Source: Pelotomaculum sp. (GTDB lineage: Bacteria; Bacillota; Desulfotomaculia; Desulfotomaculales; Pelotomaculaceae). From it: a stretch of 42,266 nucleotides of DNA. Where the stretch lies: NCBI GenBank assembly GCA_018435055.1, contig JAHDOA010000012.1, positions 1-42,266 of the forward strand, read 5' to 3'. Positions 556 to 28,789 of this stretch are shown one piece after another (the stretch's first letter is position 1; the number at the start of each line of letters is the position of its first letter). The notes beneath the pieces were generated by a model. That model saw only the letters and a program-made list of their open reading frames with translations, ran no database searches and was not told where the DNA came from. The position numbers were made by a program, and so were the translations under genes.

Positions 556-2097
556 TTATGAAAGGATGAAACCTCTTGTCTTTAGGACATCATTTAAATA
601 ATCAATAACTTCCCTGCAAACCATCTCATTAATTTCCTCGGATTTAAGACATAATTTGGCATGTACCAAATTTCTTTTTTGGCGAATAAAATGAGCTTTA
701 TCTGCTTCCTCCATCCAGGCAGGCTTCTGAATTTCTTTTATTATATTAATATAATCAATAAGATCAGCACGTTTGCTCCTACCATTTCTATCTTGTACAT
801 ATAAGTCTTCGTTAAAATAGTTTTTTCTATGTTTTTCACTAACCCAATCGATTAACACTGCTTCAAGAATTGAACCACAGAGAATCAACGTTGCTTTATA
901 TGCTTTTGCTCGGAAACAAGCATTAAGTTCTTTTAGATCTTCCTCTAAAAACTCCCTAATTATTTCTCCTTTATACAGCCTTACATTTTTCACCATCTCT
1001 ATGTTCAAAATATCCTCGACACTATGTACATCAGGATCTTGTGAAAAAAAACTAAAAAAATCATTGTATTCCGATACTGATTTCTGTTGATAATGCTGGA
1101 GTCTAAAATACTTTTCATATTCAATCAAAGATTTCTTTGGTAATATAACCGGGATATTCTCCCAATCCCTCTTTGCCATACGCGGTAGAACCGTGCCAGT
1201 TGTATTGGCACTTATAACAGTTCTACCAGTTTCGCTTTTAATATAACTATATATATAGGCAGCTTCCTCTGTATTATTTGGACGTATTACGGTATCATTT
1301 GCACCAGCATAAATTTCTCCGCTTAGCTCATCTAATAATAGGTAAAGCTTATCCGTCATACTATTCTTACATATAATATCACCCTTACAAATTAAAGTAT
1401 CCGTTTTCCACCCTTCACCAATTTCTTCGCAAGAGATAGGGTATTTAAAATCACGCACTCCAATGACCTTAGCCCTTTCGCCACGTACAGAGCGAGGTCT
1501 AATCACTGAAGCTATAGTTGACAGCGGCACTGTTCTTTCTTGTTTCAAGAAGTGATAAATATCATATACAGCTTTACTATAATGCTGAGGAAACACCTTA
1601 TCTAGATTGATATCTTCTGAGCTAAAAGTGTTGAATTTATAACAATCCCCATCAGCTGGAATAATTCCTTCTATGACCCATTGTTCAATTTTCGCACAAT
1701 AATCACGAAAATCAGCGGGATAAATATCTATCGGAATACTATCTTCTCGCAATCCTAAACGATATGAGCGTCCATAATAAAGTCCATTGTTATATGTTCC
1801 AGAAAGCACATAATTGTTTTTATCCTTTTGTAATATAAGTAGCATTAAGTTCACTGCTGTACCAGCCATCGGATTTGACAAGCCAAAAATACCTGAGATA
1901 TGATATGTATCAAACAAAATTCGTCTCTTATTTCTCCCTTGAATCCCCGTCAATGTCGACAAGTTCTCTGTAGTTATTAAATATGTCATTTCATCATCGC
2001 GCTGTAAAATTTCATCTACCCAGGCATCTCCAATCCTATTCCCCATTGGGTATCGCGTTCGTTTTTTTATCAGCTCTAAAATATTTAGTGTGCTCAT
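556..2097 (-). CDS. TRD (HsdS-like) protein with C-terminal HEPN-like domain
   Basis: 513 residues. Residues 60-92 (HISGIFGLSNP... then VNLMLLILQK) resemble the part of an N6-adenine methylase that follows the NPPF motif, but the SAM-binding and NPPF motifs are absent. Residues about 188-335 look like one target-recognition domain: PLSTIASVIRP, GDIIC, then GTVLPRMAKRDWENIPVILP, the usual end of a Methylase_S repeat. Residues about 380-513 are helical, with ILCGSILEAVLIDW and RQKRNLVH (R472/R475, N476, H479), the pattern of DUF4145/HEPN-like domains. HEPN proteins are often RNases in defence systems, so an infection-triggered RNase or a sensor attached to the restriction system is possible (inference). 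It lies 331 bp after hsdR, is co-oriented, and has a purine-rich ribosome site at 2101-2115. It has only half the TRDs of a normal HsdS. Domain calls are by eye. Confidence 0.6.
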   Translation of the reverse strand: MSTLNILELIKKRTRYPMGNRIGDAWVDEILQRDDEMTYLITTENLSTLTGIQGRNKRRILFDTYHISGIFGLSNPMAGTAVNLMLLILQKDKNNYVLSGTYNNGLYYGRSYRLGLREDSIPIDIYPADFRDYCAKIEQWVIEGIIPADGDCYKFNTFSSEDINLDKVFPQHYSKAVYDIYHFLKQERTVPLSTIASVIRPRSVRGERAKVIGVRDFKYPISCEEIGEGWKTDTLICKGDIICKNSMTDKLYLLLDELSGEIYAGANDTVIRPNNTEEAAYIYSYIKSETGRTVISANTTGTVLPRMAKRDWENIPVILPKKSLIEYEKYFRLQHYQQKSVSEYNDFFSFFSQDPDVHSVEDILNIEMVKNVRLYKGEIIREFLEEDLKELNACFRAKAYKATLILCGSILEAVLIDWVSEKHRKNYFNEDLYVQDRNGRSKRADLIDYINIIKEIQKPAWMEEADKAHFIRQKRNLVHAKLCLKSEEINEMVCREVIDYLNDVLKTRGFILS

Positions 2098-2428: not shown

Positions 2429-5400
2429 CTACGCCGCTGGATAAGTGGTATATACAAACTCATAAATCTTTCGCCGATATTCATTTAATAATCTATCATC
2501 GTAACTATCAGGTAGTTCACTCCATAGGGTATCTCTGATAAGTATATCGACTGCTGCCTGAGTTTCTTCCTTTTCTGTCCAATGATCCAATTCACTGATT
2601 TTATCCTTGATTCGTTCCAACAATACCTTGGCAAGCTTTTTAACCTTTTTAATCTCAGCCGGAGTAAGTGAGTCCTTTAAAAGCAAATCATACATAGCCA
2701 ATTCTTCGTCATTGTTAAATCCTTCCCGTACGTATCTTTTTTCCTCATCATCCAGATCATTTACGAAGTTAGTTAAGTCAATAAATGTTTTCTCTATGGC
2801 AGCTTTATCCTGTTCAGCATTGTATTCCTCAATAATTTTCTGATATTGTTCATAATAGTTAATACGCGATGGGTTGCGCTTCATCATATTATCCAGCCTG
2901 TCATTGATAAGCTCCTGTAAATCTTTCATAAGAAGATTCTTATTCTTAACACGTGCAAATTCCTGCTGCAAGCGTTCAAAGTCAATATGGCTAATATCAA
3001 AGCGGCGACTTTCAGCTAAGTATCCACCACCATCTTCGTTTACATGATCTGGTAGCTTAACAACTTTGATATATTCACTAACTATATTGTGCAGCTGAAT
3101 CATTAAATCTGTATTATCCGAATGCTTCCTTTTTTCCTGCATCTGGTCATAAACTGCACTGATAGCATTTTTATAAGCTCGGTACTGATCTGTGACTTCT
3201 TGTTTTTCGACATACTTAAACAGTTTGAATAATTCCCTAGCCATAACTTCAAAACGTTTCTTCACTTCCTCTGAGACGCACATGGCATTGGCTCCCTCTT
3301 GAACCAAGGCCAACTTGTCAAAGTCAACTGCCTGAACGAGATCTGACAAGCTAAAACCATGCTGTTTCATGTATTCGATGATATCATTGGTTAATGCAAT
3401 GATACGAGCAATCAATTCTGCTTTATCAGGAGCAGGATCAGATCCATCAGTACCGCCTTTAGTTTTTGTATAATCAGCCAAAGCCTTCCTCAGTGCTTTA
3501 ACAACACCAACATAATCAACAATTAGGCCATTGCTTTTTCCCTCATAAACACGATTCGCTCGTGCTATGGTTTGCATTAAGGTATGTGCCTTTAATGGCT
3601 TATCCAAATAGATTGTAGAAAGGCATTTCACATCAAACCCTGTCAGCCACATAGCGCAAACAAATACGATTCGAAATGGATTATCAGGATCCTTAAATTC
3701 CTTGTCCATTTCTCGTTTTTCCATTTTGCTGCGATGGGGTTTAATATCCAGTCCCCATTTTTCAAAAGTAGCTACTTCATTTTGTTCCTGACTGATAATA
3801 ACCGCCATTTCTGTGTTTTTCATCCACTCTAGCCTACGGCTGATTTCCATGTATTCCTGTTGTGTGACTCCAGATAGTGAAGATTCAATTTCTTTTATTT
3901 TTAGCTCCCAATATTTCTGAGCTAAATTAAACATTCGAACTGCAGTTACTTTATTGATACAAACAAACATGGCTTTACCCGTTGTCCACAACTCAGAGTA
4001 ATGCTCTACAAAATCCTTTGCAATGGTATCCAAACGTTTTTCACTGGTAAGGACATGTATGTCCTTAGCTAGTTCCTGTTCTAGTTTAGCCTGCTGATTG
4101 ACATCCAGATCAGCCTGTTCTATTGCATCTAGTAGTTCATCATTAATTTCAGGATTATCTATCTCCAGTAGATCGGCTCTATTCTCATAATATAGAGGAA
4201 CTGTCGCTCCATCATCTACAGCACGCTTGAAATCATAAATAGAAACATAGCCGCCAAATGTTCTTTCGGTAATATTGTCGTAAGCGAACAGCGGTGTACC
4301 TGTAAATCCTATACGGGAAGCAGTAGGAAGCAATGTACACATATTATCAGCAAATATACCATTTTGTGTACGATGTGCTTCATCCGATAAGATTATAATG
4401 TCGTGGTCAGGAATAATTGGTGGTTCATCTGGTTTATTAAACTTATGTATCAACGTAAATATAAAGCTTGGATTTCCTTTTAACTTCTGAATTAAATCTT
4501 CACCGCTAGTAGCAATAAACTGTTTGGCCTTCGTAGTACCAAGCAAACCACAAGCTTCAAAAGTATCACTAATTTGCTTATTCAGCTCTTCACGATCTGT
4601 CAAAATAACAAATGTTGGGGAGCCTGCAAATTTTCGCCGAATCTTTTGTGCAAGAAATACCATGGAATAACTTTTCCCGCTACCCTGAGTATGCCAGAAA
4701 ACACCCAGTTTACCATTGTTCAGTTTTCGATTCTTATAAGATTCAACAGCTTCGTTAACACCAAGGAACTGATGGTTTCTTGCCATAATTTTTGCCGTTG
4801 CACCACCAGAAGTATCAAAAAGGATAAAATTTTCAAATAAATCCATGAAGTTTTTCTTATTACAAATACCTCTCAACATGGTTTCCAGTTCCACTGACCC
4901 AGTATCATCTTCATGTAAACGTTTCCAATCATTGAAAAACTCGTATTTACTACCTAGGGTACCTACTTTGGATTCCAAGCCATTGGACAACATCACAAAG
5001 GCATTGAAATGAAATAGCTGGGGAATGGTATCTAAATAGTCAGTGTAATTGCAGGTGTAGGCATCCTGTACATCTACATTTTGCTTTTTCAACTCTATAA
5101 AAAGCAGTGGAATGCCATTCACAAAGCCAACAATATCGGTTCTGCGACGATATAAATCACCATGAATCTTCATCTCCTTTACAGCAAGAAAATGGTTCTT
5201 TTCAGGCTCAGAGAAATTAAACACCCGGACCAACCTATCCTCCTGATCGCCGTTAGCTTTCTTAACTTTTATAGGAATGCCATCTCGAAGCATTCCATAT
5301 TTTTCGCGATTAATCTGCATTAAGCTACTAGAGGATGTATAAGCAAGAAGTGTTTTAATTGCAGAATCACAATACTCTTCAGTTAGCCAGTCGTTATTTT

Positions 5401-5584
5401 CAAACAGTGCCTTACGAAGGTACTTGGTAAGAACAATTTCTTTATAACTTTTACGCCCGAAGGTACCATTCACGCCGAGGACTTCCTTATTATAGGCAAA
5501 CTGAACATCCCACTCTAATTCATCATGAAGTAGGTTTCCCGCACTATTTTGCACTAATATATTTTCAGAATACTCCCAGCTCAT
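2429..5584 (-). CDS. hsdR: Type I restriction enzyme, R subunit (system 1)
   Basis: 1051 residues, full length for HsdR. The N-terminal PD-(D/E)XK nuclease is visible at D150 and E164-L-K166 (RRRTDIVGF ... LLFIELKKQ). The SF2 translocase motor follows: Walker A HTQGSGKS at 299-306, DEAH at 401-404 (ILSDEAHR), GFTGTP near 428, and the motif VI region MQTIARANRVY. The subunit binds the HsdM-HsdS methylase, translocates unmodified DNA using ATP and cuts it. The start has an AAAGGAGG site 8 nt upstream. The gene begins 13 nt after hsdS and is the fourth gene of the operon. It is clearly different in sequence from the second HsdR at 22246-25320. Confidence 0.96.
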   Translation of the reverse strand: MSWEYSENILVQNSAGNLLHDELEWDVQFAYNKEVLGVNGTFGRKSYKEIVLTKYLRKALFENNDWLTEEYCDSAIKTLLAYTSSSSLMQINREKYGMLRDGIPIKVKKANGDQEDRLVRVFNFSEPEKNHFLAVKEMKIHGDLYRRRTDIVGFVNGIPLLFIELKKQNVDVQDAYTCNYTDYLDTIPQLFHFNAFVMLSNGLESKVGTLGSKYEFFNDWKRLHEDDTGSVELETMLRGICNKKNFMDLFENFILFDTSGGATAKIMARNHQFLGVNEAVESYKNRKLNNGKLGVFWHTQGSGKSYSMVFLAQKIRRKFAGSPTFVILTDREELNKQISDTFEACGLLGTTKAKQFIATSGEDLIQKLKGNPSFIFTLIHKFNKPDEPPIIPDHDIIILSDEAHRTQNGIFADNMCTLLPTASRIGFTGTPLFAYDNITERTFGGYVSIYDFKRAVDDGATVPLYYENRADLLEIDNPEINDELLDAIEQADLDVNQQAKLEQELAKDIHVLTSEKRLDTIAKDFVEHYSELWTTGKAMFVCINKVTAVRMFNLAQKYWELKIKEIESSLSGVTQQEYMEISRRLEWMKNTEMAVIISQEQNEVATFEKWGLDIKPHRSKMEKREMDKEFKDPDNPFRIVFVCAMWLTGFDVKCLSTIYLDKPLKAHTLMQTIARANRVYEGKSNGLIVDYVGVVKALRKALADYTKTKGGTDGSDPAPDKAELIARIIALTNDIIEYMKQHGFSLSDLVQAVDFDKLALVQEGANAMCVSEEVKKRFEVMARELFKLFKYVEKQEVTDQYRAYKNAISAVYDQMQEKRKHSDNTDLMIQLHNIVSEYIKVVKLPDHVNEDGGGYLAESRRFDISHIDFERLQQEFARVKNKNLLMKDLQELINDRLDNMMKRNPSRINYYEQYQKIIEEYNAEQDKAAIEKTFIDLTNFVNDLDDEEKRYVREGFNNDEELAMYDLLLKDSLTPAEIKKVKKLAKVLLERIKDKISELDHWTEKEETQAAVDILIRDTLWSELPDSYDDRLLNEYRRKIYEFVYTTYPAA

Positions 5585-5597
5585 ATGTACGCCTCCT

Positions 5598-6767
5598 TTA
5601 CACCTCTATTTCACCGTTCATCAGTTTAGGAAGTAGAAAATCACGTGATTTTTGTAATAAAAATATTTTATCTATTAGAATCTGAATGACCTTAAAGTAT
5701 ATCTCGACAATACTTTCAAACTCTTCTGATATATTCTTAGTAGGAACTATAATTTTGCTTGCCTTTAGGTATTTAAAATGCCTAGCATAGTGATAGTTTG
5801 ACAAATCAATGTTCAATAAACTGCAATATAGTAGATGCTGTGGCATTTCTTCGACCCCTGATACAATAAGCTGAGTACCATCTGCTCCTTTAGCGAATGG
5901 AAAATTTATTAATTTCAATATCCTAGTATGATCGCCAAAAACAATTACTGGAACTCCTAAATCAACAATAGTTTCTCTGTCATCTGTATACCCTGCGATA
6001 AACTCTCTACTTTGGTCAATTATTGGGATTTCTCCACTGTTGTTATATTCTGATTTCTTTACTTGCTTAGTACGTGGTGTCTTCGAGATTAAAGAGCCAA
6101 CTTCTTTATACTCCCACCCCTCCGGCACACCATCTACTATCTTAGTGTTTTCATGGCCAGGGAATCGCAGTTTTACAAACCATTCTTTATACAATCGCAT
6201 GGCCGCTTCTTCCAGCAACTTAATCTGCTTTTGATTATTTTCAATTAAATCATCATAAGCAGAAAGGATGTCTGCTATTCGTCGTTGAGTTGGCAGTGGT
6301 GGGATAGGTATTTCAATTTGACTGAAGTTTTTTATCGGTAATTGTGGCTGTGCACTTCCTGTAATATAGCTTTGCATTCTTACTCTTTGGTAATCGCTCT
6401 TTAATAGCTGATATAAATATCTCTGCTCAACTTTTCCTTGTATTGCTCTAAGAATTACCATGCCAGAATTTATTCTAACATTATCATAAGGTATCTTATC
6501 ACTATAATAAGCAGTATTACCTATCGTCCCTCTCGAGGTAAAAACAATATCCCCGCGCATAAGTTTTCCTTTTCTCAGAATCTTGTCTTTCTCCTCAGTA
6601 ATAAACAAGTTATTATAAAAATTAAAACCTTGTCGAGTTACATTTCCAGTATTCAGAAAAAGGCAGTACCCTTTATCACGAAATTCATTTTGTTTCGGGT
6701 AATTTTTTCCCCTATCTCCATCTATAATGTCAGCTATCTCCCCAATTTTTTGTAGTTTCCACTTCAT
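5598..6767 (-). CDS. hsdS: Type I restriction enzyme, S (specificity) subunit (system 1)
   Basis: 389 residues, standard size. Two target-recognition domains are each followed by a conserved helical spacer: TRD1 ends QPQLPIKNFSQIEIPIPPLP, followed by TQRRIADILSAYDDLIENN; the C-terminal spacer ends SRDFLLPKLMNGEIEV. The subunit chooses the bipartite DNA target for both methylation and cutting. Its ATG overlaps the hsdM stop by four bases (ATGA), so the two are translationally coupled, giving equal amounts for the M2S complex. TRD2 is less conserved and its target cannot be predicted. Confidence 0.95.
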   Translation of the reverse strand: MKWKLQKIGEIADIIDGDRGKNYPKQNEFRDKGYCLFLNTGNVTRQGFNFYNNLFITEEKDKILRKGKLMRGDIVFTSRGTIGNTAYYSDKIPYDNVRINSGMVILRAIQGKVEQRYLYQLLKSDYQRVRMQSYITGSAQPQLPIKNFSQIEIPIPPLPTQRRIADILSAYDDLIENNQKQIKLLEEAAMRLYKEWFVKLRFPGHENTKIVDGVPEGWEYKEVGSLISKTPRTKQVKKSEYNNSGEIPIIDQSREFIAGYTDDRETIVDLGVPVIVFGDHTRILKLINFPFAKGADGTQLIVSGVEEMPQHLLYCSLLNIDLSNYHYARHFKYLKASKIIVPTKNISEEFESIVEIYFKVIQILIDKIFLLQKSRDFLLPKLMNGEIEV

Positions 6768-8722
6768 ATTCCCAGCTCCTCAAAATTCGCTGAAATTGTA
6801 TCCATTAACTGGTTTGCCTCTGACTGTAATGTTAAGAGTTCCTTATGAATTTCAGTCATTCTTTCTTCAAAGTTTTCATCATCTTCTTCTACAGGAGCTA
6901 CTCCCACATATGCGCCCGGAGTAAGGCTCCAGTTCTTTTCTTCTATTTCATCTATAGTTGCAACTTTACAAAGTCCCAGAACATCGGTATATGTGCCGTC
7001 TCCGAATTTTTCAGTGAGCCACTTTGCTTCTTTTATAACTGTGCGGCATGCTTTAATTTGAGATACTACTTCCTCAATGCGACTAGAAACAGATTTCTTG
7101 AAACGGTCCCAAGTTGTTGCGGTTTCATCGATGGTTTTAGCAAACTCCTTAGCTTCATCCTTCTCCAATCCATCACCATACTCACAAAGTGCTTTTAACG
7201 ATGCATTAAGTTCTGTAGTATACTTTTTCAACAAATCATTCAGCGGTAACAGCTGGTTAATATCCTCTGAAATTATAATGATATCTGAAATCTGAACTCT
7301 CAATGGTTTAAGTTTCTCACCATAGCCATTCAACAATATCGACACACTTTCAAATTCAGCATCTAGTTCTCTACAATCATTGATAATTTGAGTCCTATAA
7401 TCCTGTAATAGTTTTGTGTATTTCTCCGTCTCTCCACGATAGAGCCAGACAATGGCATTTAGGTTTTTCATCTGCCATTCACTCCACTCATTGAGTGTTC
7501 GATCCACTACGGTATAGTAATTACGTGAATCTATAAAAAGAACTTTATCCTTTAATTCTTCTTTCTTCCCCTTATCAAAGAACCACAGGGAGCAAGGTAA
7601 TGAAACCTTGTAAAAAAAATTATTAGCCACTGACATTAAACAGTCTACATGCCCGGTCTGAATAAGCTGTTTTCTTATTTCTCGATCCTTATTGCCGCTA
7701 TCTGTAGCAGAAGCAGCCATAACAAAGCCAGCTCGTCCGCTATCATTTAAATATGCATAGAAATATGAAATCCAAAGATAATTAGCGTTAGAGACTTCCT
7801 TTTTCTGATTTACCCCCGGCAGCCCAAAAGGTAAGCGTCCTGCATTCTGAGTAGATTCTGCTTTTACTTTATCTACATTAAATGGAGGATTAGCCATTAC
7901 ATAATCGCAGCTACCTTCCAGATTATGAGCATCATGATAGAAGCTGTTAGCCTCATCACCAGACTTGATTTTTGCATTCAGACCATGTACAGCCATATTC
8001 ATGATACATAACTTAGCGTTAAACTCCACTTTTTCTTGTCCATAAAAAGTCATAACAGAATTAGCATTGATGCCTTCAGCATTAACAAAGTCACTGGAAG
8101 AAACAAACATCCCACCACTTCCACAGGCTGGATCCAATACTATCCCATGAGTTGGCTCAATTATATTTACAATCATCTTTACTAAAGATTTAGGTGTAAA
8201 GAAAACTCCATCATCCGAAGCGATAGCTGAAGCAAATTTATTTAAGAAATACTCATATATACGTCCAAGGATATCATCGTTGATTTCATTCAATGCACTA
8301 TTGTTAAAAATACGCAACAATTCTTTCAACAAATCATTTCTAAAAGAAGTATATGTTTTAGGTAGTATTCCTTTCAATTGAGTACTCTCTGCCTCAATAA
8401 GCTCCATAGCTTCATTGACTGCTTTCCCACAATCAGCATCGTCTGGTAAATTGAGCAAATAATCATATCGTGCCTTCTCAGGTAAAAAGATAGCACTTTT
8501 CTGCTTAAAATCACTTGACTCAACAGGCAGTACACGACCATTTCGAACTGGACGGTCTTTTAGTATTTCTGCCTCTACATATTTAAACCGGCTATATGCA
8601 TAACGCAAAAAGATTAAACCAAGAACCGGCATGCAATATTCTTGAGAACTTAATTTAGAACCTTGACGTAAGAGATCTGCTGATTCCCATAATTCTGATT
8701 CTAATTTTCTTATATTTATCAT
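6764..8722 (-). CDS. hsdM: Type I restriction enzyme, M (N6-adenine methyltransferase) subunit (system 1)
   Basis: 652 residues from the chosen start. The N-terminal helical HsdM_N region (LESELWESADLLRQGSKLSSQ) is followed by the methylase core: SAM motif DPACGSGG at 197-204 and catalytic NPPF at 278-281 (YVMANPPFNVD). The C-terminus carries an extra helical region (about residues 430-650), longer than in minimal HsdM. An ATG at 8737 is in frame but lies inside the AATGGAGG ribosome site of the ATG at 8720-8722, so the latter (MINIRKLESE) is the likely start. The stop overlaps hsdS by ATGA. It modifies host DNA and, with HsdS and HsdR, restricts foreign DNA. Confidence 0.95.
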   Translation of the reverse strand: MINIRKLESELWESADLLRQGSKLSSQEYCMPVLGLIFLRYAYSRFKYVEAEILKDRPVRNGRVLPVESSDFKQKSAIFLPEKARYDYLLNLPDDADCGKAVNEAMELIEAESTQLKGILPKTYTSFRNDLLKELLRIFNNSALNEINDDILGRIYEYFLNKFASAIASDDGVFFTPKSLVKMIVNIIEPTHGIVLDPACGSGGMFVSSSDFVNAEGINANSVMTFYGQEKVEFNAKLCIMNMAVHGLNAKIKSGDEANSFYHDAHNLEGSCDYVMANPPFNVDKVKAESTQNAGRLPFGLPGVNQKKEVSNANYLWISYFYAYLNDSGRAGFVMAASATDSGNKDREIRKQLIQTGHVDCLMSVANNFFYKVSLPCSLWFFDKGKKEELKDKVLFIDSRNYYTVVDRTLNEWSEWQMKNLNAIVWLYRGETEKYTKLLQDYRTQIINDCRELDAEFESVSILLNGYGEKLKPLRVQISDIIIISEDINQLLPLNDLLKKYTTELNASLKALCEYGDGLEKDEAKEFAKTIDETATTWDRFKKSVSSRIEEVVSQIKACRTVIKEAKWLTEKFGDGTYTDVLGLCKVATIDEIEEKNWSLTPGAYVGVAPVEEDDENFEERMTEIHKELLTLQSEANQLMDTISANFEELGI

Positions 8723-8764
8723 TAAACAAGCCTCCATTTGATTGATATTTCACAATAATAAATA

Positions 8765-8974
8765 CTAATTCCGTTTGGTATCCATTTCCATGATATCACA
8801 GACGTCACATTCCAACGCTATACAGATTTTTTGTATTATTTCTGTACTAACATTTTCGTTTTTACCAAGCTTTGTTATCGTAGCAGAACTTATACCCGCA
8901 AGCTTCTGCAAGTCTTTCTTTTTCATATCTCTATCAATAAGAAGCTTCCATAGTTTTTTATAACTAATTGCCAT
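8765..8974 (-). CDS. Cro/C1-type (XRE) regulator heading restriction system 1
   Basis: 69 residues, almost entirely an HTH_26-type helix-turn-helix: MAISYKKLWKLLIDRDMKKK, then DLQKLAGISSATITKLGKNE, ending CDVCDIMEM. A longer frame extends to 9076, but the ATG at 8972-8974 has a GAGGTG site 7 nt upstream and matches the start of the paralogue at 28790-29011, so the short form is preferred. About 47 of the first 64 residues are identical to that paralogue. As the first gene of the hsd operon it probably delays or limits restriction expression by binding the palindromic region upstream (inference). Confidence 0.9.
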   Translation of the reverse strand: MAISYKKLWKLLIDRDMKKKDLQKLAGISSATITKLGKNENVSTEIIQKICIALECDVCDIMEMDTKRN

Positions 8975-8984
8975 TGTAATCACC

Positions 8985-9026
8985 TCTATGTATGTATAAT
9001 TACATGATATCATTAGCATCATTATA
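8985..9026 (-). promoter_or_regulatory. Probable promoter/operator of restriction system 1
   Basis: On the minus strand a TATAAT (9021-9026) is followed by a perfect ATGATATCAT palindrome (9004-9013) and a TGTA...TACA inverted pair (about 8990-9003), just before the ribosome site of the XRE gene. No good -35 was seen at 17 bp. The arrangement suits autoregulation by the small regulator. Confidence 0.45.
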
Positions 9027-9117
9027 TTGCAAACATTTTCTTTAAGTTCGCATGATTTTTTATTTGTATTCAACAATTATTACTCTAAATCCTATATTGT
9101 CAGGTGTATAGAATGTT

Positions 9118-9445: not shown

Positions 9446-11806
9446 TTAGTTGCGAATTACAACGTCTGTTTGAAGCTTAATATTGGTATGCCAGAAGTTA
9501 TATTCATCTAGCTTTTGGTTTGCTTCATTATAAACAGGTTTTGTTCCGGTCGGGTCCTTAATAGTTACAATGAGGCAGAACTCTTGGCTTGGTACAGTAC
9601 CTTCCATTTGAGACTTAACTTCGATGTGATCTCTGTAAAGACCTTTTATATACAGATACCAATTCTTGTCTTTCGTTAAGTACTTAAGCTGGTTACCATC
9701 AGTCATTTCAGATAAGTCGACTGCATACTTCTTTACAGGATAATACTTATCTCCATACTTAATCAGTAATCTTTCTTTCAGAGCAAATTCATCCGTATTG
9801 CTTCTCATTTTCTTCTTGCTGTAATAATCTTCAAGAAGCACATTCTGAGAACCATCTCGTCCTACTGGATTAAGAATATTTCTTTTGGATGTATCCCTAT
9901 CCTTCTTAGCATCATATGTACCCATTTTAATATCTACATTAGATTGGCAATACTCTGCTCTCTGTGTCGAGTCAAGAATTGGGTTGTATACCAAAGTTAC
10001 AATGATTTGTCCCGTAAAGTAATCTCCATCCACAAGACATTCAGGCATAGGAAAGTCCATTATATCAATGTACTCACCCTTTGCAATTTCATCACGCAAG
10101 ATCAAGGTAACTTCGTGAGGTGAATTATATAAAATTTCTCTTACAGGCTGTGGTTTCCCGAATCCCACTTGATTTACTCTTTCAGTTACTGGAACTCTTA
10201 GATTTTCTGAATAACTTGCAGAATGGACAATCAAGGCCTTGATTAATAAGGGATCAAACTCTTCTTCCATTTCTTGATGTAAACCTGCCGCGAGTGATGC
10301 AATGCGAGGTGTAGAATAACTTGTACCCACTGATTGACAGATTGCACCATCCAATCCGAATGATCTCACCCCTGTTATAACCATCCTTCCTGAAGCATCT
10401 ACACCAGCATTTCCGCCATAATGTACTATTTCTGGTTTAATGATGTAGGATGGTCCACGACCAATTCTTGTAAATGGTGATGGATTATCAACCTCAGCTA
10501 AATCTAGTGCGGATTTTTTATGTGCAATAGATCCTACCACTATAGACCTTACACTGTCAGCGCCTTGATGGATCTTCCCTTTTGGATGACCCATCTTAAA
10601 ATTTTTACAGTTTCCCGCAGATTTACAGATTAAAACTCCATACTGATCCTGCAAAGCATCTAGTGCAACAGCAAAATCGGAGAAGCTATATTCATCCACT
10701 TCATTGATAATGCTAATTGACAGATTCCACACTTTCACATCTCTGTGATGGGCTTTGACAGCCTCTTGGATGTTTCGAATTAACTCATCTTCTTCGATGC
10801 CCTCCTTATCAGTATCTGGATAAACACAAGCATCCAGGACTTTAACACCTTCAGTACCTACCCACTTTTTTCCTTCCAAGTGATCACCATAGATGACTAC
10901 TCCTGAAACAAAAGTTCCATGATCTTTTTTTACATAAGGTTCTGGATATGCAGTATATCGCTCTTCAACAAGCCATGGTTTCACATGTGGAATATCAGCT
11001 ATTCCGTTATCTAAGATGCCCACTATCGCATACTTTTTTCCTTCTTTAGGAGTTAAAATGTTAATTGTTGCTTCATCGTTTTCCATATCAAGAGCAACTG
11101 TATATTTTGGCATAGGTTCGATGGAAAAAATAGCTTCAAAGATTTCATTTTTATTAAGAGTAGTCATATACTCATCAAGGTTAACACCCTTAACATTGTA
11201 GACTACATGGTTCGGTGTATAATTGGTTCTGATTACTTCGTGCCCTATTTGCTTCATTGATCTTTCAAAGTAGTTTCTAATTGCTGTATTTTGCTCGTAA
11301 TTTTGAAAATCAATGAGTTTAACTTTATAGTCAACAGACTCAGCACTTTCGTTCTTGTCAATTATAGGTTCAAAATCAGATATGCTATCAATTGCAGATA
11401 ATGCGTGGGCATATCGCTGAGTATTCTTTAAACGCTCAAGTATTTTATCTACTTCTCGAGAGTTATCTACTTTGATAATTAGCTCATCTTCATCCGCCAG
11501 TCCTAATACATTATTATCTGTGCCGGTCCTAAATAAGTTGCTTACTTCACGTCTATGGGTTTTTGCCGTTGCATCGTCAATAATTCTAGTCTTGAAAACA
11601 AATGGAATTAAAGAGTTATTCCTTTCCTTCTTTAACACTTTCGTCCTAAAGTCCTGAAATCTATCAACAAAAACTCTAGACTTAATCTGTAGTTCTTCTA
11701 GACTTAATATGAATTTAGGTGGATCTCCTCCTCCACCAGCTTCAACTCTCATATTGTCTACTTCTCTTTTAGCAAAAAACTTAATTGGTAATCTTTCATC
11801 AGCCAT
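9446..11806 (-). CDS. ietS: S8 (subtilisin-like) serine protease of an ietAS-type system
   Basis: 786 residues. The catalytic tetrad is complete: D266 (GILDNGI), H296 (KKDHGTFVSG), oxyanion N399 (SAGNCKNF) and S496 (VGTSYSTP). A long N-terminal region (1-255) precedes the protease, and about 270 residues follow it; there is no signal peptide, so the protein is cytoplasmic. It follows the AAA+ gene by 20 nt with a GGGGTGG ribosome site. The pairing of a cytoplasmic S8 protease with an AAA+ ATPase is that of IetAS, first described as a plasmid toxin-antitoxin pair and later as an anti-phage system. The protease is the expected effector (toxin) and the ATPase the regulator; targets are unknown. 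Confidence 0.88.
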   Translation of the reverse strand: MADERLPIKFFAKREVDNMRVEAGGGGDPPKFILSLEELQIKSRVFVDRFQDFRTKVLKKERNNSLIPFVFKTRIIDDATAKTHRREVSNLFRTGTDNNVLGLADEDELIIKVDNSREVDKILERLKNTQRYAHALSAIDSISDFEPIIDKNESAESVDYKVKLIDFQNYEQNTAIRNYFERSMKQIGHEVIRTNYTPNHVVYNVKGVNLDEYMTTLNKNEIFEAIFSIEPMPKYTVALDMENDEATINILTPKEGKKYAIVGILDNGIADIPHVKPWLVEERYTAYPEPYVKKDHGTFVSGVVIYGDHLEGKKWVGTEGVKVLDACVYPDTDKEGIEEDELIRNIQEAVKAHHRDVKVWNLSISIINEVDEYSFSDFAVALDALQDQYGVLICKSAGNCKNFKMGHPKGKIHQGADSVRSIVVGSIAHKKSALDLAEVDNPSPFTRIGRGPSYIIKPEIVHYGGNAGVDASGRMVITGVRSFGLDGAICQSVGTSYSTPRIASLAAGLHQEMEEEFDPLLIKALIVHSASYSENLRVPVTERVNQVGFGKPQPVREILYNSPHEVTLILRDEIAKGEYIDIMDFPMPECLVDGDYFTGQIIVTLVYNPILDSTQRAEYCQSNVDIKMGTYDAKKDRDTSKRNILNPVGRDGSQNVLLEDYYSKKKMRSNTDEFALKERLLIKYGDKYYPVKKYAVDLSEMTDGNQLKYLTKDKNWYLYIKGLYRDHIEVKSQMEGTVPSQEFCLIVTIKDPTGTKPVYNEANQKLDEYNFWHTNIKLQTDVVIRN

Positions 11807-11826
11807 TTTTTACACCACCCCTTCTT

Positions 11827-12921
11827 TCACTCCGGAGAGTTCGCTACATCTCTCACCTTCCTAATCGAAAAACCATAGTTATCGCAGATTTCCTTTTGTG
11901 TCACCCCATATTGCAACAGGTATTTAATAAAATCATTCTCACTGATAATTTTATGGTTTCTATATAAATATACTTCTTGCAATATGTCCCAATTACGAGT
12001 CATATCCTTTTTGTTTATGATGGATTTCTTTATTGCGTTATTTACTACTGTTTTGACATCTGCATGGCTAATGCCATCTAAGGCGGCTGCCAACATTTCC
12101 AGTTTCTTTTCATTCTCCATCACATTACTTTTTGTATTCTTTGTATACAACTTGATCAACTGCATGATCTCTTCTTTATTAGGCTTCTCTAATGTAATAA
12201 TCTTAGAGAACCTTCTCCAAACAGCTGGATCCAATAATTCATGATGATTGGTTGCTGCAATTAAAATACTGTTTTGACTAAAATCATCAATGTTTTGGAG
12301 TAAGCTGTTCACAACCCTTTTTAGTTCTCCTAGTTCATGCTTGTCATCCCTAAGTTTTGCTACAACATCAAATTCATCAAGGAATAAGATACAGTCCCTT
12401 TTCGAAGCATAGTCGAAAATTCTCCTGATGTTCTTTGCTGTGCTTCCTAAGAGTGATGAGACCAGACCATCAAGTCTAACGGTCACAAGTGGTAACCTCG
12501 TCTTATATGCGATAAATCTTGCTACCGTTGTTTTCCCACACCCGGGCGGGCCATACAATAGCAATGAGCTAACCATCTCAATTCCAGCTCGTAAAATCTC
12601 ATCCCTCTGCCAATAGCTTTTAATAAATTCATCGATCTCATCATTAACATAATGCTTCAATATTGGTATCTCAAATGATTTATCCGGGATAAAGATATCA
12701 ACCATCTCCATACGGCTTTCAAAATCCACTGGCTTAGTAGAAAAATCATCTAAGGAGGCCATTCTAGTTTTTTTATTCACTAATAGAGAGCGTATTTTCT
12801 TGGCTAGTAAATCATCACCAGATTTCTCCATGTTCTCTGCTAGAACTTGAGCATAATTATATACCTTCTCTTTATCACCAATCATTCCACCTTCAATTAT
12901 TTTCACAATCTCTGTGTACAT
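11827..12921 (-). CDS. ietA: AAA+ ATPase of an ietAS-type system
   Basis: 364 residues. Walker A GPPGCGKT at 124-131, Walker B CILFLDEFD near 178-184, sensor 1 in IAATNHH (N225) and arginine fingers in VWRRF (R236/R237): a complete classical AAA+ (FtsH/VPS4-like) module. Residues 1-100 form a variable N-terminal region. The last 30 residues (YGVTQKEICDNYGFSIRKVR) look like a small helix-turn-helix, suggesting DNA contact or autoregulation. It is the first gene of the two-gene operon, with a GGAGGA ribosome site and a good promoter at 12945-12974. In known pairs the ATPase restrains or directs the protease. Confidence 0.88.
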   Translation of the reverse strand: MYTEIVKIIEGGMIGDKEKVYNYAQVLAENMEKSGDDLLAKKIRSLLVNKKTRMASLDDFSTKPVDFESRMEMVDIFIPDKSFEIPILKHYVNDEIDEFIKSYWQRDEILRAGIEMVSSLLLYGPPGCGKTTVARFIAYKTRLPLVTVRLDGLVSSLLGSTAKNIRRIFDYASKRDCILFLDEFDVVAKLRDDKHELGELKRVVNSLLQNIDDFSQNSILIAATNHHELLDPAVWRRFSKIITLEKPNKEEIMQLIKLYTKNTKSNVMENEKKLEMLAAALDGISHADVKTVVNNAIKKSIINKKDMTRNWDILQEVYLYRNHKIISENDFIKYLLQYGVTQKEICDNYGFSIRKVRDVANSPE

Positions 12922-17234: not shown

Positions 17235-18254
<1,020 letters not shown>

Positions 18255-19710: not shown

Positions 19711-22239
19711 TTATTGTTTTATAAACGGCACAATCACATCGTAGAACCTCTTCGTCCAATCAGCGTGGAAGTTAGCCATCTGGAGCCAATCGGTCTCATT
19801 CTCGATGCTGACGTTATTCAGCTGAATGAAGACCTTAGAGGATTTGATGTCGTCGCCACGGTTCCACTGGAGCATCGTGCCCAGCGCAGATTCTATTTCT
19901 GCTTTATGTGTATACAGGCTATCGAAGGCAGCCTTGTTTTCTTGCTTATTGCCTCTACCAAATACGACCTCTGCCCGCGCTGCATCAAAGTTTGCTACGC
20001 AGCAAAGATAGAAGCCACCTATACCAAAGAAGCCATTGATCCAGTTATCCCTTGACGGATTAACATTAGAGAAGGAACCGTCCTCGCCGTGCGCCTTCTG
20101 GATAATCGGAAGCGCGTATGTCCAGTATTTTCTCCGGAGCTCATATCGGCTGCCCGGCTCGTCCTCATTGGCCTCGTTTTCATCACGCAGGTAAAATACC
20201 AAATCTGCCGGATCTTCATCGTACAATTTGAAGAGACGACTCAGAACAGATAGCTTGCTCTGCGTGCTTGTGTTTGTCCAAACATAGATGCCATCGCCAA
20301 TCTCAAGCGACTTCGTGAATGCATCCTGATTTGTATTGAAGTGGAGAGCTATGTTCTCCTCCTCCGACATGGCCAGCTTAGTGATAATGGCCTTATCCTC
20401 GGCATACAGAATCTGAATAACCTTCTGGAACATCTCAACCCAGCTCGTTACCGGCTGCTCAGTGTTCTTAAAGGTAAACTTCGCAATTAGTCGTCCGGTC
20501 AGCTCACCCTCATCCTCAAGCGTATAAGTGTCAAGCTGCTTTTCTTCCGGTTTGTAATCTGTGACAGGTGCTGCCCAGATTGACAGAGCCCGACCCATGA
20601 GATATTCGCTGCGCTCCTCCAGCTCCGCCAGTGTCCACTTATCCTTCTTGGCAATCCAAGTATTCATGCGAATACCACTGTCATCGAAACCGTTCTGCAT
20701 GGTTTTCTTTTCAGTGAAAGAGCTATTGCTGTATTTCGAGTTATAGGCCGTCAGCGTAAGATTTGCCATGCGATGCAACCACAGCTCATGTATCTGCTCA
20801 TAGTCATCGCCCAGTTCCTTCTGCCATACTGGCGTTAGATGCTGAGGCATAATGTGCTCAATCGAATAGGTGCCGTCGTCACAGTGACGGTATACATCCT
20901 TATCCTCCGAAGTGCCGAAGTTCTCGAAGCGCTCAAGAATGTAAATCTTATTCTTGCTGTTCATCAGATAAACTGGACGTTCCTCAAATGCCGCCTTAAA
21001 CTCCACATCGTCCGGGAAGCGGGCACGCTCTTTCTTGGAAAGAAGTGCATACTTGAGCTTCTCGACATAGTTATCCTCGGTACCGTCGTATCGTATGATC
21101 TCTCGGTGCAGCATGAGGAAGATTTTATTCAGAGCATTTGTCGGCAGGTCACACATCGTCCTGCGGAACAGGTAATTCTCTGTCGTCAGGAAAATCTCAG
21201 TGACCTGTGCCAACGTCAGTTTGTTTTCGTTATATAGGCGCAGCACTTCGAGGAAATACGGCCTTGTTACCGTAGTCTCCAGACGATTCAGTCGGTCAAT
21301 ACAAGCGTCAAGGGCGGCACTGCCGGAATTACCATCAAGGAGAATCTGGTACCGCTTTGCATAGGCCAACATCTCGGCAAGGAGTGGTTCCGTTTCGATT
21401 TTTCCAAGCTCCACAAAGTCCTTAAAATTGATGTAGATCTTCTTCTGCTGCGGGATGGCCTGCTGCTTCACACTCAGGTAATCCCGGATAAAGGCGCTTA
21501 CATCATACTTCGTGCAGACCTCGATCTTATTCCAGTATTTCTCGTAATAATCCTCCTGCTCCTTAGAAGGCAAGCCCATCAATATGAAGTTTCTGATCTT
21601 ATCACCTTCACTGAGGTCAAGACCGGTCGAGTTCAGGCTCTCAAAAATGAGTTGCGGATTGTCGTCCATATCCAGCCGGATGTTTATAATCTCCAGACAG
21701 CAGATCGCATCGTAAAGCTGATCGATAGTGATTTCCTGTTTCTGAATGCGGTCATAAAAATAATCGTAGTTCACAGTCAAATTGGACTCGCGGATATGCT
21801 CCGTCGGATCAGAGAACAGCTTACCGAAAGCCGTCTGGTCATTCTTTACCGGTTTGAGCTTGATACGGGTATCCTCCGGCTTCCACTTGTCCACGAGGTA
21901 TTCCTCGAAAATTCGCTGCTTCAGATTAGAGGTCTCCGGCACAATGACACCCTTATCAATCAAGTTATACATGGCAAGGAACAACAGCGATACTGTAGTA
22001 AGGCGCTGCTGGCCATCGATGATCAGGAACTCCTCATTATGCCCATCCGGATTATAGACGGAAACAAGACTCCCGAAAAAGTGACTCTTCCGGTGTCCTT
22101 TGATGATCTTTACGAGGTCATCATACAGCTGCTTGCAGTTCTCGGTCTTCCAGTCATAATTTCTCTGGTACACCGGGATGACAAACCGCTTGTCGGAGCC
22201 CTCCATATATTTAACGAATTTGCATTCCGAACCCTTCAT
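19711..22239 (-). CDS. GmrSD-like type IV restriction enzyme (DUF262-DUF1524, C-terminal DUF4268-like)
   Basis: 842 residues. The N-terminal DUF262 domain (ParB/Srx-like NTPase) shows IPVYQRNYDW at 21-30, IDGQQRLTT at 74-82 and IFESLNSTGLDLSEGDKIRN at about 199-216. The DUF1524 His-Me nuclease has EHIMPQ (H462) and RMANLTL (N493). The last 170 residues resemble DUF4268 (YWTYALPIIQKA ... FFGIGGFYL). GmrSD enzymes cleave DNA with modified, often glucosylated, cytosines, which type I enzymes cannot cut. Its AAGGAGG ribosome site is encoded by the last codons (K-E-D) of hsdR and the gap is 6 nt, so it is translationally coupled to the type I system. Confidence 0.9.
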   Translation of the reverse strand: MKGSECKFVKYMEGSDKRFVIPVYQRNYDWKTENCKQLYDDLVKIIKGHRKSHFFGSLVSVYNPDGHNEEFLIIDGQQRLTTVSLLFLAMYNLIDKGVIVPETSNLKQRIFEEYLVDKWKPEDTRIKLKPVKNDQTAFGKLFSDPTEHIRESNLTVNYDYFYDRIQKQEITIDQLYDAICCLEIINIRLDMDDNPQLIFESLNSTGLDLSEGDKIRNFILMGLPSKEQEDYYEKYWNKIEVCTKYDVSAFIRDYLSVKQQAIPQQKKIYINFKDFVELGKIETEPLLAEMLAYAKRYQILLDGNSGSAALDACIDRLNRLETTVTRPYFLEVLRLYNENKLTLAQVTEIFLTTENYLFRRTMCDLPTNALNKIFLMLHREIIRYDGTEDNYVEKLKYALLSKKERARFPDDVEFKAAFEERPVYLMNSKNKIYILERFENFGTSEDKDVYRHCDDGTYSIEHIMPQHLTPVWQKELGDDYEQIHELWLHRMANLTLTAYNSKYSNSSFTEKKTMQNGFDDSGIRMNTWIAKKDKWTLAELEERSEYLMGRALSIWAAPVTDYKPEEKQLDTYTLEDEGELTGRLIAKFTFKNTEQPVTSWVEMFQKVIQILYAEDKAIITKLAMSEEENIALHFNTNQDAFTKSLEIGDGIYVWTNTSTQSKLSVLSRLFKLYDEDPADLVFYLRDENEANEDEPGSRYELRRKYWTYALPIIQKAHGEDGSFSNVNPSRDNWINGFFGIGGFYLCCVANFDAARAEVVFGRGNKQENKAAFDSLYTHKAEIESALGTMLQWNRGDDIKSSKVFIQLNNVSIENETDWLQMANFHADWTKRFYDVIVPFIKQ

Positions 22240-22245
22240 ATGTTG

Positions 22246-25200
22246 TTAGTCCTCCTTCTTAGCTCCGTATGGCGCTGGATCTTCAGCCACCATTGAAACC
22301 GGAGGCTCATAATCAAATGAATACACTTTTTCTGCGTCGGACTTAGGTGTTGTTGGCTTCTGATATGTTGCATTGAAAATCAAATCCAGTAACCAGTCCC
22401 TGAAGGACTGATTCCGGCGACTCCGGGTATCACCCTGATAAGCAGTATAAAGTTCCATTCCACTGGACATATTACGGAGGATTGCCTCCCATGTAGCGCG
22501 TTCACTCTCATCGCGAGCATTCTGAATATCCGAGAACTGCATTGCATTCTGATAACGCTCGTCCTTCTTGACCTCTTCGGCGATTTCCTGAATTTGCTTC
22601 TTGATTTTGTCTTCATCTGTCCAGTCGCAGTTTCCCCACACATCATGGAACGATTCGAGGATATGAGTAAGCGTATCCAATTCAGGTACTGGAATGCCTA
22701 TATCCGTCTGAACCGGCACAGGCTTCACCTCTGCATCCTCATTGGCCAGCGAGATTGACATGGTCTGCTGGGCAACAACTCGATAGCTATCAAGATCGAC
22801 GCTTTCGATGATTTTCTTATAATCGTCATTTTCGTCTCCCACTTTCGGGAGTTTTGGCACGAGAAGTGTCAGGAAAATAGACAGTTTCTCCCAGTCCGGA
22901 GAACCATACGGTAATATGGACGACAGGAAATTATAAGTACGCACAAATCCCTTTGCACTCTTCTTGAACTCTACCTTGTCGTCATATTCTAAAGCCTTAA
23001 ACAGCTCGACACACCTATCGATGATCGGATCAAGCTGTTCCCGATCTGCATTATTCAAGTAGAGCTCAACAAACGTGTTCACATCGTCATCGGAATAGAC
23101 CTGCATGGGCTCCATGTTGTCAATCAGATCATTTAGTTTGTTTGCATCTGTCTCGCCGGAAAGAACCGTGGTCTTATAGTATCGCTCAAAGGATTTCTGA
23201 ATATCAGCAGGATTGTTGATGAAGTCCAAAACAAAGGTATCTGTCTTGTACGGTGCACAACGATTCAAGCGCGAGAGCGTCTGTACTGCCTTAATGTCAA
23301 ACAGTTTCTTATCCACATACATCGTCTGTAAAAGAGGCTCATCATATCCGGTCTGGAATTTGTCCGCTACGACCAGAATACGATATGGATCTTTACGGAA
23401 TTCCTTCTCAATCTTGGCACTTGGAAATCCATTGATCTTTGCCTCGGTATATGTTTCACCATTATAGCGAGCTTCACCTGAGAAAGCGATCATCGGCTTG
23501 TACTGGCTTTTGCGCTCTTCCAGCTCTTTCTTGATAGCAAAGTAGTATTCAATCGCTCTTTGAATTTGATGGGTGACTACCATTGCACGAGCCTTGCCCT
23601 TAATCTTCATCCGGACATTATTATAAAAATGCTCAACAATGATACCGGCCTTTTCCTCTATAGCATGAGGATCGCTTTCCACATAAGAACGCAGGATTTT
23701 ATTTGCTCTCTTCTTATCGAAGAGCGGATCATCATTGACGGTCTTAATCAGGTGGTAGTAACTCTGATAAGGCGTATAGTATTTCAGGACATCAAGGATA
23801 AACTTCTCCTCGATTGCCTGCTTCATCGTATACACATCGTGTGGCTTAGCCCTTTTCGTTCCGTCCTCATTTAAGATCGGATTGCCGTTTTCATCAGTTA
23901 TGATTTCACCAAACATTTCAAGGGTCTTATTTTTCGGTGTGGCCGTGAACGCAAAATAGCTTGCGTTCTGAGCCATTTTCTTGCCCTCGATGATTGTGTT
24001 GATCTTGTCCTCAAAATCGTCATCATCGGTATAAACATTGCCTGAAATAACAATGTTCATCTTTGCAGCGAGACTGCCGTTCTGGCTCGAATGCGCTTCG
24101 TCGATAATGATCGCGAAGGTGCGATTCTTATATGCTGTAGAAATATCGTTCAAGATGAACTGGAACTTGTGCACTATGGTAATGATGATCTTCTTACCCT
24201 CATCCAAAAGGGTATGCAAATCGGACGCAGACTTTGCCCAGCCTACTGTAGAGGAAACCTGCGTGAATTGCTTTATCGTATTTTTGATCTGCTTATCGAG
24301 GTTGATACGGTCGGTAACCACAATAACAGTATCAAAGATATTCTTACCGCCGTTTTGAAGCGTGACAAGCTGATGGGCGAGCCAAGCTATTGAATTCGAC
24401 TTGCCACTGCCCGCGCTATGTTGAATAAGGTAACGCTGCCCGGCACCTTCCTTCTTGGCGCGGTCGAGAAGCATCGTTACAGCCTTCAGCTGATGGTACC
24501 TTGGGAATATTTGTTTATACGAAGTCTTCCCTGTATCCTCGTCCTTATCCGCAACAATCTGTACATAGTTTTCCAGAATCTTAGAGAACTCACTCTTCGT
24601 CAGTATATCTTTCCAAAGGTAATCCGTCTTGATTCCACTCGGATTTGGAGGATTACCTGCGCCATCCTCAAAACCTTTGTTGAATGGCATGAAATATGAG
24701 TCGTCCTTCTTCAGTTCGGTACACATCATGATTTCGTTATCATCAACAGCGAAATGCACAATGCAGCGCTTAAAGCTGAACAACTTCTCCGCAGGGTCTC
24801 TATCCGTTTTATACTGCTTGACCGCATCAGCAGTATTCTGCAGAGTGAACTGGTTCTTCAGCTCCATTGTGATAATCGGAAGGCCATTCAGGAAAATGCA
24901 GAGGTCAAGCGCAAGGCGGCCATATTCCTTGGAATACTGCAGCTGACGAGTCACGCTAAAAATGTTCTCGTCATATAGCTCTTGCGCACGCTGGTTTCCC
25001 TTGCTCGGCAACACCTGATAGAACTCCAGTGTCTTATTCTTATATTTAAAACCTTTTCTGAGTATCTCAATAACACCTTGGTCAGAAAGCTTCCGACTGA
25101 GCCTCTCCAGAAACTTCTTCTTTTCTGCCGGTGTATCGAGTATACGCAGCTCCGCTAAATCTCGTGGCTGTGTGCTTTGCAAATAGCGAAACAAACGCTC

Positions 25201-25320
25201 CTCATCAATCGCATACTCCTGATTGTAGTCAGCATTTGTCCCTTGCTCATAACCGTTTTCGTTAACAAGCCAGTTAACGATGAGAGTCTCGAAGCCATTT
25301 TCCTTGGTGTTACTTGGCAT
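22246..25320 (-). CDS. hsdR: Type I restriction enzyme, R subunit (system 2)
   Basis: 1024 residues. The nuclease site is D139 and E153-L-K155 (LALDLCIFL ... ITMELKNQF). The motor has Walker A HSAGSGKS at 301-308, DEAH at 407-410 (IIIDEAHSSQ), FTATPKNKT and TLSRLNRCAP (motif VI). It is of a different subfamily from the HsdR at 2429-5584. Its ATG overlaps the hsdS stop (TAATG). It translocates and cuts DNA lacking the system's methylation. Base composition is less AT-rich than in system 1. Confidence 0.96.
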   Translation of the reverse strand: MPSNTKENGFETLIVNWLVNENGYEQGTNADYNQEYAIDEERLFRYLQSTQPRDLAELRILDTPAEKKKFLERLSRKLSDQGVIEILRKGFKYKNKTLEFYQVLPSKGNQRAQELYDENIFSVTRQLQYSKEYGRLALDLCIFLNGLPIITMELKNQFTLQNTADAVKQYKTDRDPAEKLFSFKRCIVHFAVDDNEIMMCTELKKDDSYFMPFNKGFEDGAGNPPNPSGIKTDYLWKDILTKSEFSKILENYVQIVADKDEDTGKTSYKQIFPRYHQLKAVTMLLDRAKKEGAGQRYLIQHSAGSGKSNSIAWLAHQLVTLQNGGKNIFDTVIVVTDRINLDKQIKNTIKQFTQVSSTVGWAKSASDLHTLLDEGKKIIITIVHKFQFILNDISTAYKNRTFAIIIDEAHSSQNGSLAAKMNIVISGNVYTDDDDFEDKINTIIEGKKMAQNASYFAFTATPKNKTLEMFGEIITDENGNPILNEDGTKRAKPHDVYTMKQAIEEKFILDVLKYYTPYQSYYHLIKTVNDDPLFDKKRANKILRSYVESDPHAIEEKAGIIVEHFYNNVRMKIKGKARAMVVTHQIQRAIEYYFAIKKELEERKSQYKPMIAFSGEARYNGETYTEAKINGFPSAKIEKEFRKDPYRILVVADKFQTGYDEPLLQTMYVDKKLFDIKAVQTLSRLNRCAPYKTDTFVLDFINNPADIQKSFERYYKTTVLSGETDANKLNDLIDNMEPMQVYSDDDVNTFVELYLNNADREQLDPIIDRCVELFKALEYDDKVEFKKSAKGFVRTYNFLSSILPYGSPDWEKLSIFLTLLVPKLPKVGDENDDYKKIIESVDLDSYRVVAQQTMSISLANEDAEVKPVPVQTDIGIPVPELDTLTHILESFHDVWGNCDWTDEDKIKKQIQEIAEEVKKDERYQNAMQFSDIQNARDESERATWEAILRNMSSGMELYTAYQGDTRSRRNQSFRDWLLDLIFNATYQKPTTPKSDAEKVYSFDYEPPVSMVAEDPAPYGAKKED

Positions 25321-28747: not shown

Positions 28748-28789
28748 ATTTAAAAAACTCCTTGTCTGTTTATTGTCTTTGCCATTCAT

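Follow-up and report, generated by a model that had tools for sequence, protein, structure and literature searches.

A conserved pseudo-methylase-TRD-HEPN fusion protein encoded beside restriction-modification genes

Introduction

What might a protein do that joins a DNA target-recognition domain (TRD) to a HEPN domain and is encoded at the end of a type I restriction-modification (R-M) operon? The question is raised by a gene in a 42,266-nucleotide stretch of DNA from Pelotomaculum sp., referred to here as the window. A first-pass annotation, made from the sequence alone, had placed this gene at positions 556 to 2097 behind hsdMSR, and suggested that a specificity-like domain fused to a latent RNase could sense the state of the target DNA or of the HsdM complex. 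We followed up these suggestions by comparing structural models, homologs, and gene neighborhoods.

Results and discussion

The fusion gene closes an apparently intact type I operon

The open reading frame was recovered at exactly the annotated coordinates (556 to 2097, minus strand), where it encodes 513 amino acids and is supported by seven full-length homologs (L021-L027). It starts with ATG, and the purine-rich AGGAGAGGGGGAGGGAG upstream constitutes a good ribosome-binding site. The genes of the operon lie on one strand (minus), in the order of a small Cro/C1-type HTH regulator heading the operon (8765 to 9076; PF13443), an intact N6-methyltransferase gene, hsdM (6764 to 8737; PF02384/PF12161, PADLOC MTase_I at 1134 bits), hsdS for a specificity subunit with two TRDs (5598 to 6767; PF01420 twice), hsdR for the restriction subunit (2429 to 5584; Pfam HSDR_N/SWI2_SNF2, TIGR00348), and the fusion gene last. 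HsdM carries the motifs DPACGSGG and NPPF, and a motif scan of HsdR identified Walker A (GSGKS), DEAHR, and a PD-ExK-like motif (DIVGFVNGIPLLFIELK); hence, the partner R-M system looks intact. The fusion gene is separated from hsdR by 331 nt. No convincing antitoxin gene was detected in this gap, in which the longest minus-strand open reading frame spans 43 amino acids. A search around the fusion gene yielded no terminator, and promoter-like matches were at chance level.

A second, different type I set (hsdM 26681-28789, hsdS 25320-26684, and hsdR 22246-25320) is present in the window, and beyond its hsdR lies a gene (19711-22239) for a GmrSD-like type IV enzyme that ends in DUF4268. Based on these genes (19711-28789), the window represents a defense island. 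An IetS/IetA anti-phage pair (S8 peptidase and AAA ATPase, 9446-12921) lies immediately upstream of the hsd operon, and an RrnaAD ribosomal RNA adenine dimethylase gene, possibly Erm-like, is also located within the island (17235-17990).

A methylase remnant and a single TRD

Searches of the whole 513-aa protein against Pfam returned no family at E ≤1, and its NCBIfam and PADLOC matches were confined to the TRD. Residues 1-180 (1558 to 2097, minus strand) correspond to the post-catalytic half of an N6-adenine methyltransferase according to hhalign, structural comparison, and motif scanning. Residues 58-326 are colinear with residues 397-694 of a 723-aa M-S fusion methyltransferase (L012; hhalign, E = 2.3e-10), which bears DPACGTGG at position 236 and NPPF at position 324, and the alignment begins 70 residues after NPPF. 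As these catalytic motifs precede the aligned segment, the window protein begins past the catalytic half. SAM motif I and NPPY motif IV were found by motif scan in none of the eight family members (window protein and L021-L027). An AlphaFold2 model of the whole protein (44-sequence alignment, mean pLDDT 85.6) matched enzymes with a methyltransferase-TRD layout over residues 4-363, namely CamA (Z 13.1 over 300 residues), M.BseCI (12.6), M.TaqI (10.9), and BrxX (10.1). These results bear out the earlier impression of a methylase tail devoid of catalytic motifs. The pseudo-methylase segment is also homologous, in a weak match, to a segment of HsdM.

Residues 181-350 (1048 to 1557, minus strand) form a single HsdS-type TRD, as had been anticipated. 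The PADLOC Specificity_I model matches this region in 8/8 family members (E down to 8.6e-6 for the window protein), and a family profile searched against the sequences of HsdS crystal structures matched 5ybb and 3okg (E = 2e-6). Structural matches to the TRD model included Esub1 (Z 15.0), the PacII S subunit (13.9), and EcoKI HsdS (11.3). While type I HsdS proteins contain two TRDs and two conserved helical spacers, the fusion protein has a single TRD, with HEPN after it.

A HEPN domain with an invariant predicted active site

The first-pass annotation had proposed checking the C-terminus by structure prediction against HEPN folds, with any other fold counting as refutation of its reading. The AlphaFold2 model of residues 355-513 (49-sequence alignment, pLDDT 88.6) upheld the HEPN assignment, as the best 24 rows in the structural comparison were all HEPN entries or HEPN-family members (Z 8.4-11.5), with unrelated lyase helical bundles appearing from 8.3. 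The best match was 2hsb (Z 11.5, 2.8 Å over 117 residues), and others included sacsin (10.5), TT1696 (10.0), HepT toxins (9.5-9.9), Csm6 (9.8), and SO_3166 (9.6). The model has the four helices of the HEPN superfamily fold, with an insert between helices 2 and 3. Foldseek E-values were weak (0.05 and above), with leading matches nearly all to HEPN. A profile of the HEPN alignment returned nothing useful from the sequences of solved structures; the link to solved HEPN domains is accordingly one of fold comparison only. We conclude from the model that residues 372-513 (559 to 984, minus strand) are a HEPN domain, for which endoRNase activity, metal-independent in this superfamily, is predicted. 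The nearest Pfam model is DUF4145 (PF13643), which matched the window protein at E = 0.12 and 36/49 relatives weakly, at best at 7.5e-5. Where bit scores were given, they ranged from 12.9 to 21.1, under the Pfam gathering cut-off of 23.1. An "AbiJ-like" label considered for these relatives was dropped, given that their Pfam matches are to DUF4145 only, at sub-threshold scores, and that the AbiJ N-terminal domain is absent.

The predicted active-site motif is R475-N476-L-V-H479 (RNLVH; 661 to 675, minus strand), accompanied by the acidic residue E412 in HEPN helix 2 (862 to 864, minus strand). R475, N476, H479, and E412, together with G408 and S409, are identical in 49/49 relatives of varied architecture. 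In the model, R475-N476 close helix 3 (467-476) and H479 is the first residue of the loop leading to helix 4, a placement (helix 3 end or loop, with the acidic residue in helix 2) that matches the one described for HEPN active sites (PMC3710099). Measured from the invariant R475, the spacing is Rx3H, one residue under the textbook Rx4-6H, whereas R472 gives Rx6H in 43/49 relatives, L021, L026, and L027 being among the exceptions.

The fusion is a rare but conserved family

The HEPN core was used as seed in a scan of 84,980 species genomes, and hits were confirmed against the entire protein; this recovered seven homologs that cover it (25%-33% identity to the window protein). Their sources were rumen Clostridia and related MAGs, one Bacilli MAG, and two Psychrobacter. 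Six were matched end to end, and the seventh (L027), matched from residue 161 by tblastn, proved to be full-length once its open reading frame was read. All seven align end to end with the window protein and keep its architecture. Recurrence of the full layout in seven independent loci at such low identity is far beyond chance. These proteins constitute a conserved family. Its members join a HEPN domain to the target-recognizing and modifying portion of an R-M enzyme, from which the catalytic half of the methylase has been lost. The remaining HEPN relatives from the scan are without a TRD.

Prevalence of the fusion family appears to be low, since a family profile searched against 398 genomes of the phylum identified only the window protein and one other full-length or near-identical member (in genome G039), and samples of other classes yielded no member. 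Plasmid and phage collections contained no match to the window protein, and plasmids none to the L026 or L023 fusion proteins. A scan of viral contigs returned one locus only (L074), encoding a HEPN-only protein. This 248-aa protein (L074:7671-8417), which shares 53% identity with the HEPN domain of the window protein and is encoded amid the tail genes of a phage-like cluster, is possibly a phage-borne HEPN RNase without a TRD.

R-M genes adjoin the fusion gene at every readable locus

The refutation that the first-pass annotation had offered, namely homologs occurring mostly away from restriction genes, was not what the neighborhoods showed. R-M genes adjoin the fusion gene in 8/8 readable loci (the window and L021-L027), seven of type I and one of a BglII-like type II; the G039 copy was left out of this count, as its neighborhood is masked (5,000 N). 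In L022, L024, L026, and L027, the fusion gene follows hsdR within about 30 nt, and in L023, it follows hsdR, hsdM, and hsdS. The order in L021 is hsdR, hsdM, hsdS, a tyrosine recombinase gene, an inverted second hsdS, and the fusion gene; the recombinase and inverted hsdS (L021:6108-8320), which the fusion gene adjoins, are an arrangement characteristic of type I systems with phase variation. The type II case, L025, has the fusion gene 54 nt after a BglII-like restriction endonuclease gene, with a divergent C5-methyltransferase gene. Protein kinase-like and DndB-like genes upstream of the L025 fusion gene (L025:3912-7941) mark a mixed defense cluster. Genes downstream of the fusion gene vary by locus, so that there is no second conserved partner. 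Since R-M is the only conserved partner, control of an antitoxin kind would be expected to reside in cis or within the R-M complex.

HEPN relatives lacking a TRD had type I genes within 7 kb in about 6/46 loci, several in the arrangement M-S-HEPN-R. Relatives in or beside type I operons (L028, L033, L052, L062, L066, L070, and L010) are mostly located between hsdS and hsdR.

Apparent movement of the fusion among R-M systems

Comparison of close pairs indicates that the methylase remnant evolves fastest, the TRD next, and that HEPN is the most conserved. Identities of remnant, TRD, and HEPN were 74%, 83%, and 92% between L022 and L023 (remnant-TRD difference, P = 0.066), 56%, 79%, and 84% between L024 and L025 (P = 5e-6), and 46%, 75%, and 94% between L026 and L027 (P = 2e-8). 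Based on these sequence comparisons, the fast-evolving remnant may be a surface that faces a changing partner or phage protein. The TRD is 60%-83% identical among homologs whose associated R-M systems differ and include a type II system. We considered whether the TRD is shared with the cognate HsdS and rejected this, as TRD pairs from the same locus were no closer than others. The HsdR partners come from subfamilies that are distantly related to one another. For example, the L022 and L023 fusion proteins are about 80% identical, while their HsdR proteins match over 93 residues only, at 29%. Conservation of the TRD alongside such different HsdR proteins suggests that the module is passed from one R-M system to another while its TRD is not retuned.

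A recent transfer is apparent from the G039 copy (L009). This genome belongs to another family of the same phylum. In the readable part of its copy, residues 250-513, the protein does not differ from that of the window, and the two genes differ at 1 of 792 coding bases; the rest of the copy is masked. An IS21-type element adjoins the copy, and related IS sequence is found at the contig edge of the window. Upstream of the copy are 5,000 masked bases (L009:10502-15501), followed by a chromosomal rRNA methyltransferase gene. The R-M partner in G039 may differ from that in the window, since 5,000 bases seem too short for a whole hsdMSR.

A putative guard of R-M systems

Conservation as a unit, linkage to R-M genes, and anatomy point to a recognition arm controlling a toxin arm. 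The reading we favor, to which we give about an even chance, is that the fusion protein is an accessory guard of R-M systems, a back-up "suicide" switch similar to PrrC. The pseudo-methylase/TRD part would dock on DNA or the R-M complex in the manner of an ordinary modification enzyme and would hold the HEPN half silent. Where restriction is blocked or displaced, such as by a phage anti-restriction protein or through loss of the R-M complex, the released HEPN domains would pair and cleave host or phage RNA, and growth would stop before the phage matures. This would be analogous to PrrC with EcoprrI, with an M/S-like sensor replacing the ABC ATPase.

The guard reading draws on the HEPN fold and its invariant active-site residues, the methyltransferase-like scaffold lacking catalysis, and the consistent proximity to R-M genes, and is further supported by the TRD-less HEPN relatives in type I operons (about 6/46, plus L010). 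A guard of R-M systems in general also fits the pairing of closely similar fusion proteins with distant HsdR subfamilies. Precedents for the release of an RNase or toxin by anti-restriction proteins are provided by PrrC, PARIS, and Ronin (PMC12409349). Counted against it are the L025 type II system, which has neither a type I M nor S subunit, the Rx3H spacing from the invariant arginine, and the 331-nt gap in the window, which makes a promoter of the fusion gene's own possible. RNase activity, trigger, and defense function are what we infer from these data. More specifically, the pseudo-methylase/TRD part could be a bait for anti-restriction proteins (such as DNA mimics of the Ocr/ArdA type). 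It would imitate the methylase-TRD surface to which these proteins attach, and their binding would set off the RNase fused to it. Rapid evolution of the pseudo-methylase and indifference to the partner R-M system fit this idea without proving it, and we hold it only tentatively; if true, the protein would be a one-protein alarm for anti-restriction.

Among the alternatives, a stand-alone DNA sensor would use its TRD to bind its own unmodified site on incoming DNA, whereupon copies would pair through HEPN and cut RNA, with the adjoining R-M operon supplying protective methylation of the host or being a mere neighbor in a defense cluster. The full HsdS/CamA-type fold of the TRD suits such a role, as does its greater conservation relative to the methylase remnant in close pairs, which is expected for one fixed site. 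A fixed site would, however, need to be methylated by different partner systems, including one with a C5-methyltransferase, and the TRD has no special kinship to cognate HsdS TRDs, making this explanation rather unlikely. The original sensing proposal splits in two; its PrrC-like guard version fits the data, but the version in which the state of the target DNA is read is disfavored, because the TRD has no special kinship to the cognate HsdS TRDs and stays 60%-83% identical across R-M systems. As judged from sequence comparison, the fusion protein thus looks like a mobile R-M guard rather than a reader of its partner's target site.

Mobility could also belong to an addiction module, in which R-M proteins hold HEPN inactive and loss of the operon frees it to kill the cell, stabilizing the R-M operon on a mobile element. 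Sporadic distribution, recent transfer between families of the phylum, IS sequence at the edge of the contig, and the absence of a separate antitoxin gene are all compatible with this. Yet L025 has no type I subunits that could hold the fusion protein, and, as the window starts at a contig edge, the evidence for mobility is indirect; we consider such a module improbable. A similarly doubtful role is that of a regulator or decoy, with the pseudo-methylase/TRD competing with HsdS or binding HsdM and HEPN serving only in dimerization or RNA binding. Homology of the N-terminal part to HsdM (weak) and of the TRD to HsdS would permit this, and some HEPN domains are non-catalytic (PMC3710099), but mere dimerization would not need the four active-site residues (R, N, H, and E) to be invariant in 49/49 relatives, nor HEPN to be the most conserved part. 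Finally, the missing catalytic half of the methylase might mark a decaying methylase-TRD relic fused by chance to a HEPN gene. This is very improbable, as the breakpoint and architecture are common to eight diverged loci, conservation contradicts decay, and the frame is intact with a good ribosome-binding site.

Comparison with known systems

HEPN guards of type I systems are already known from PrrC; the methylase-TRD-HEPN fusion corresponds to no named system in the libraries searched, consistent with the first-pass annotation recognizing none. A survey of the freely accessible literature on HEPN with HsdS, TRDs, or methylases likewise yielded no account of such a fusion. In the principal HEPN survey, Anantharaman et al. 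(2013) reported many linkages between HEPN and R-M genes, in which R-M-linked HEPN domains are fused to nucleases, helicases, and ATPases, not methylases, although occasional fusions to nucleic-acid methylases are tabulated for one HEPN family (PMC3710099). In surveys of BREX and Dnd, HEPN is described as part of ATPases, and DndH as carrying an inactive methylase-TRD (PMC10853773 for DndH).

Individual parts of the fusion protein have counterparts elsewhere. Residues 4-363 share the methyltransferase-TRD layout of single-chain enzymes (CamA, M.BseCI, M.TaqI, type IIG, and BrxX-PglX), but unlike CamA/M.TaqI-type enzymes, the fusion protein lacks the SAM-binding and NPPY half and has HEPN at its C-terminus. 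DndH (TRD, inactive methyltransferase, and restriction endonuclease) similarly uses an inactive methylase-TRD as the recognition part of an effector (PMC10853773), although that effector is a DNase with an ATPase and no HEPN. Stand-alone HEPN genes (DUF4145-like solos) encode a related HEPN domain and occur in or beside hsdM-S-[HEPN]-R operons, but have a small, different N-terminal domain and neither the TRD nor the methylase part that the fusion protein combines.

The closest parallel in organization is PrrC with EcoprrI, in which a C-terminal HEPN domain is likewise carried by an accessory protein in a type I hsd locus (PMC3710099). PrrC is a latent RNase that is released when restriction is inhibited (PMC3710099; PMC12409349). 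Its N-terminal part is an ABC ATPase, whereas the fusion protein has the pseudo-methylase and TRD instead and no Pfam ATPase match. Linkage to a type I R-M locus, which is defining for PrrC and usually lacking in RloC, was found in 7/8 readable fusion loci. PARIS and Ronin resemble the proposed guard in releasing a toxin upon sensing anti-restriction proteins, and in Ronin the partners of the toxin are modification-type subunits (PMC12409349), but these are different proteins in which sensor and toxin genes are separate, and Ronin is without an R subunit. If it is a guard, the fusion protein would provide a compact link between the surface attacked by anti-restriction proteins and an RNase effector, and such alarms could pass between unrelated R-M systems.
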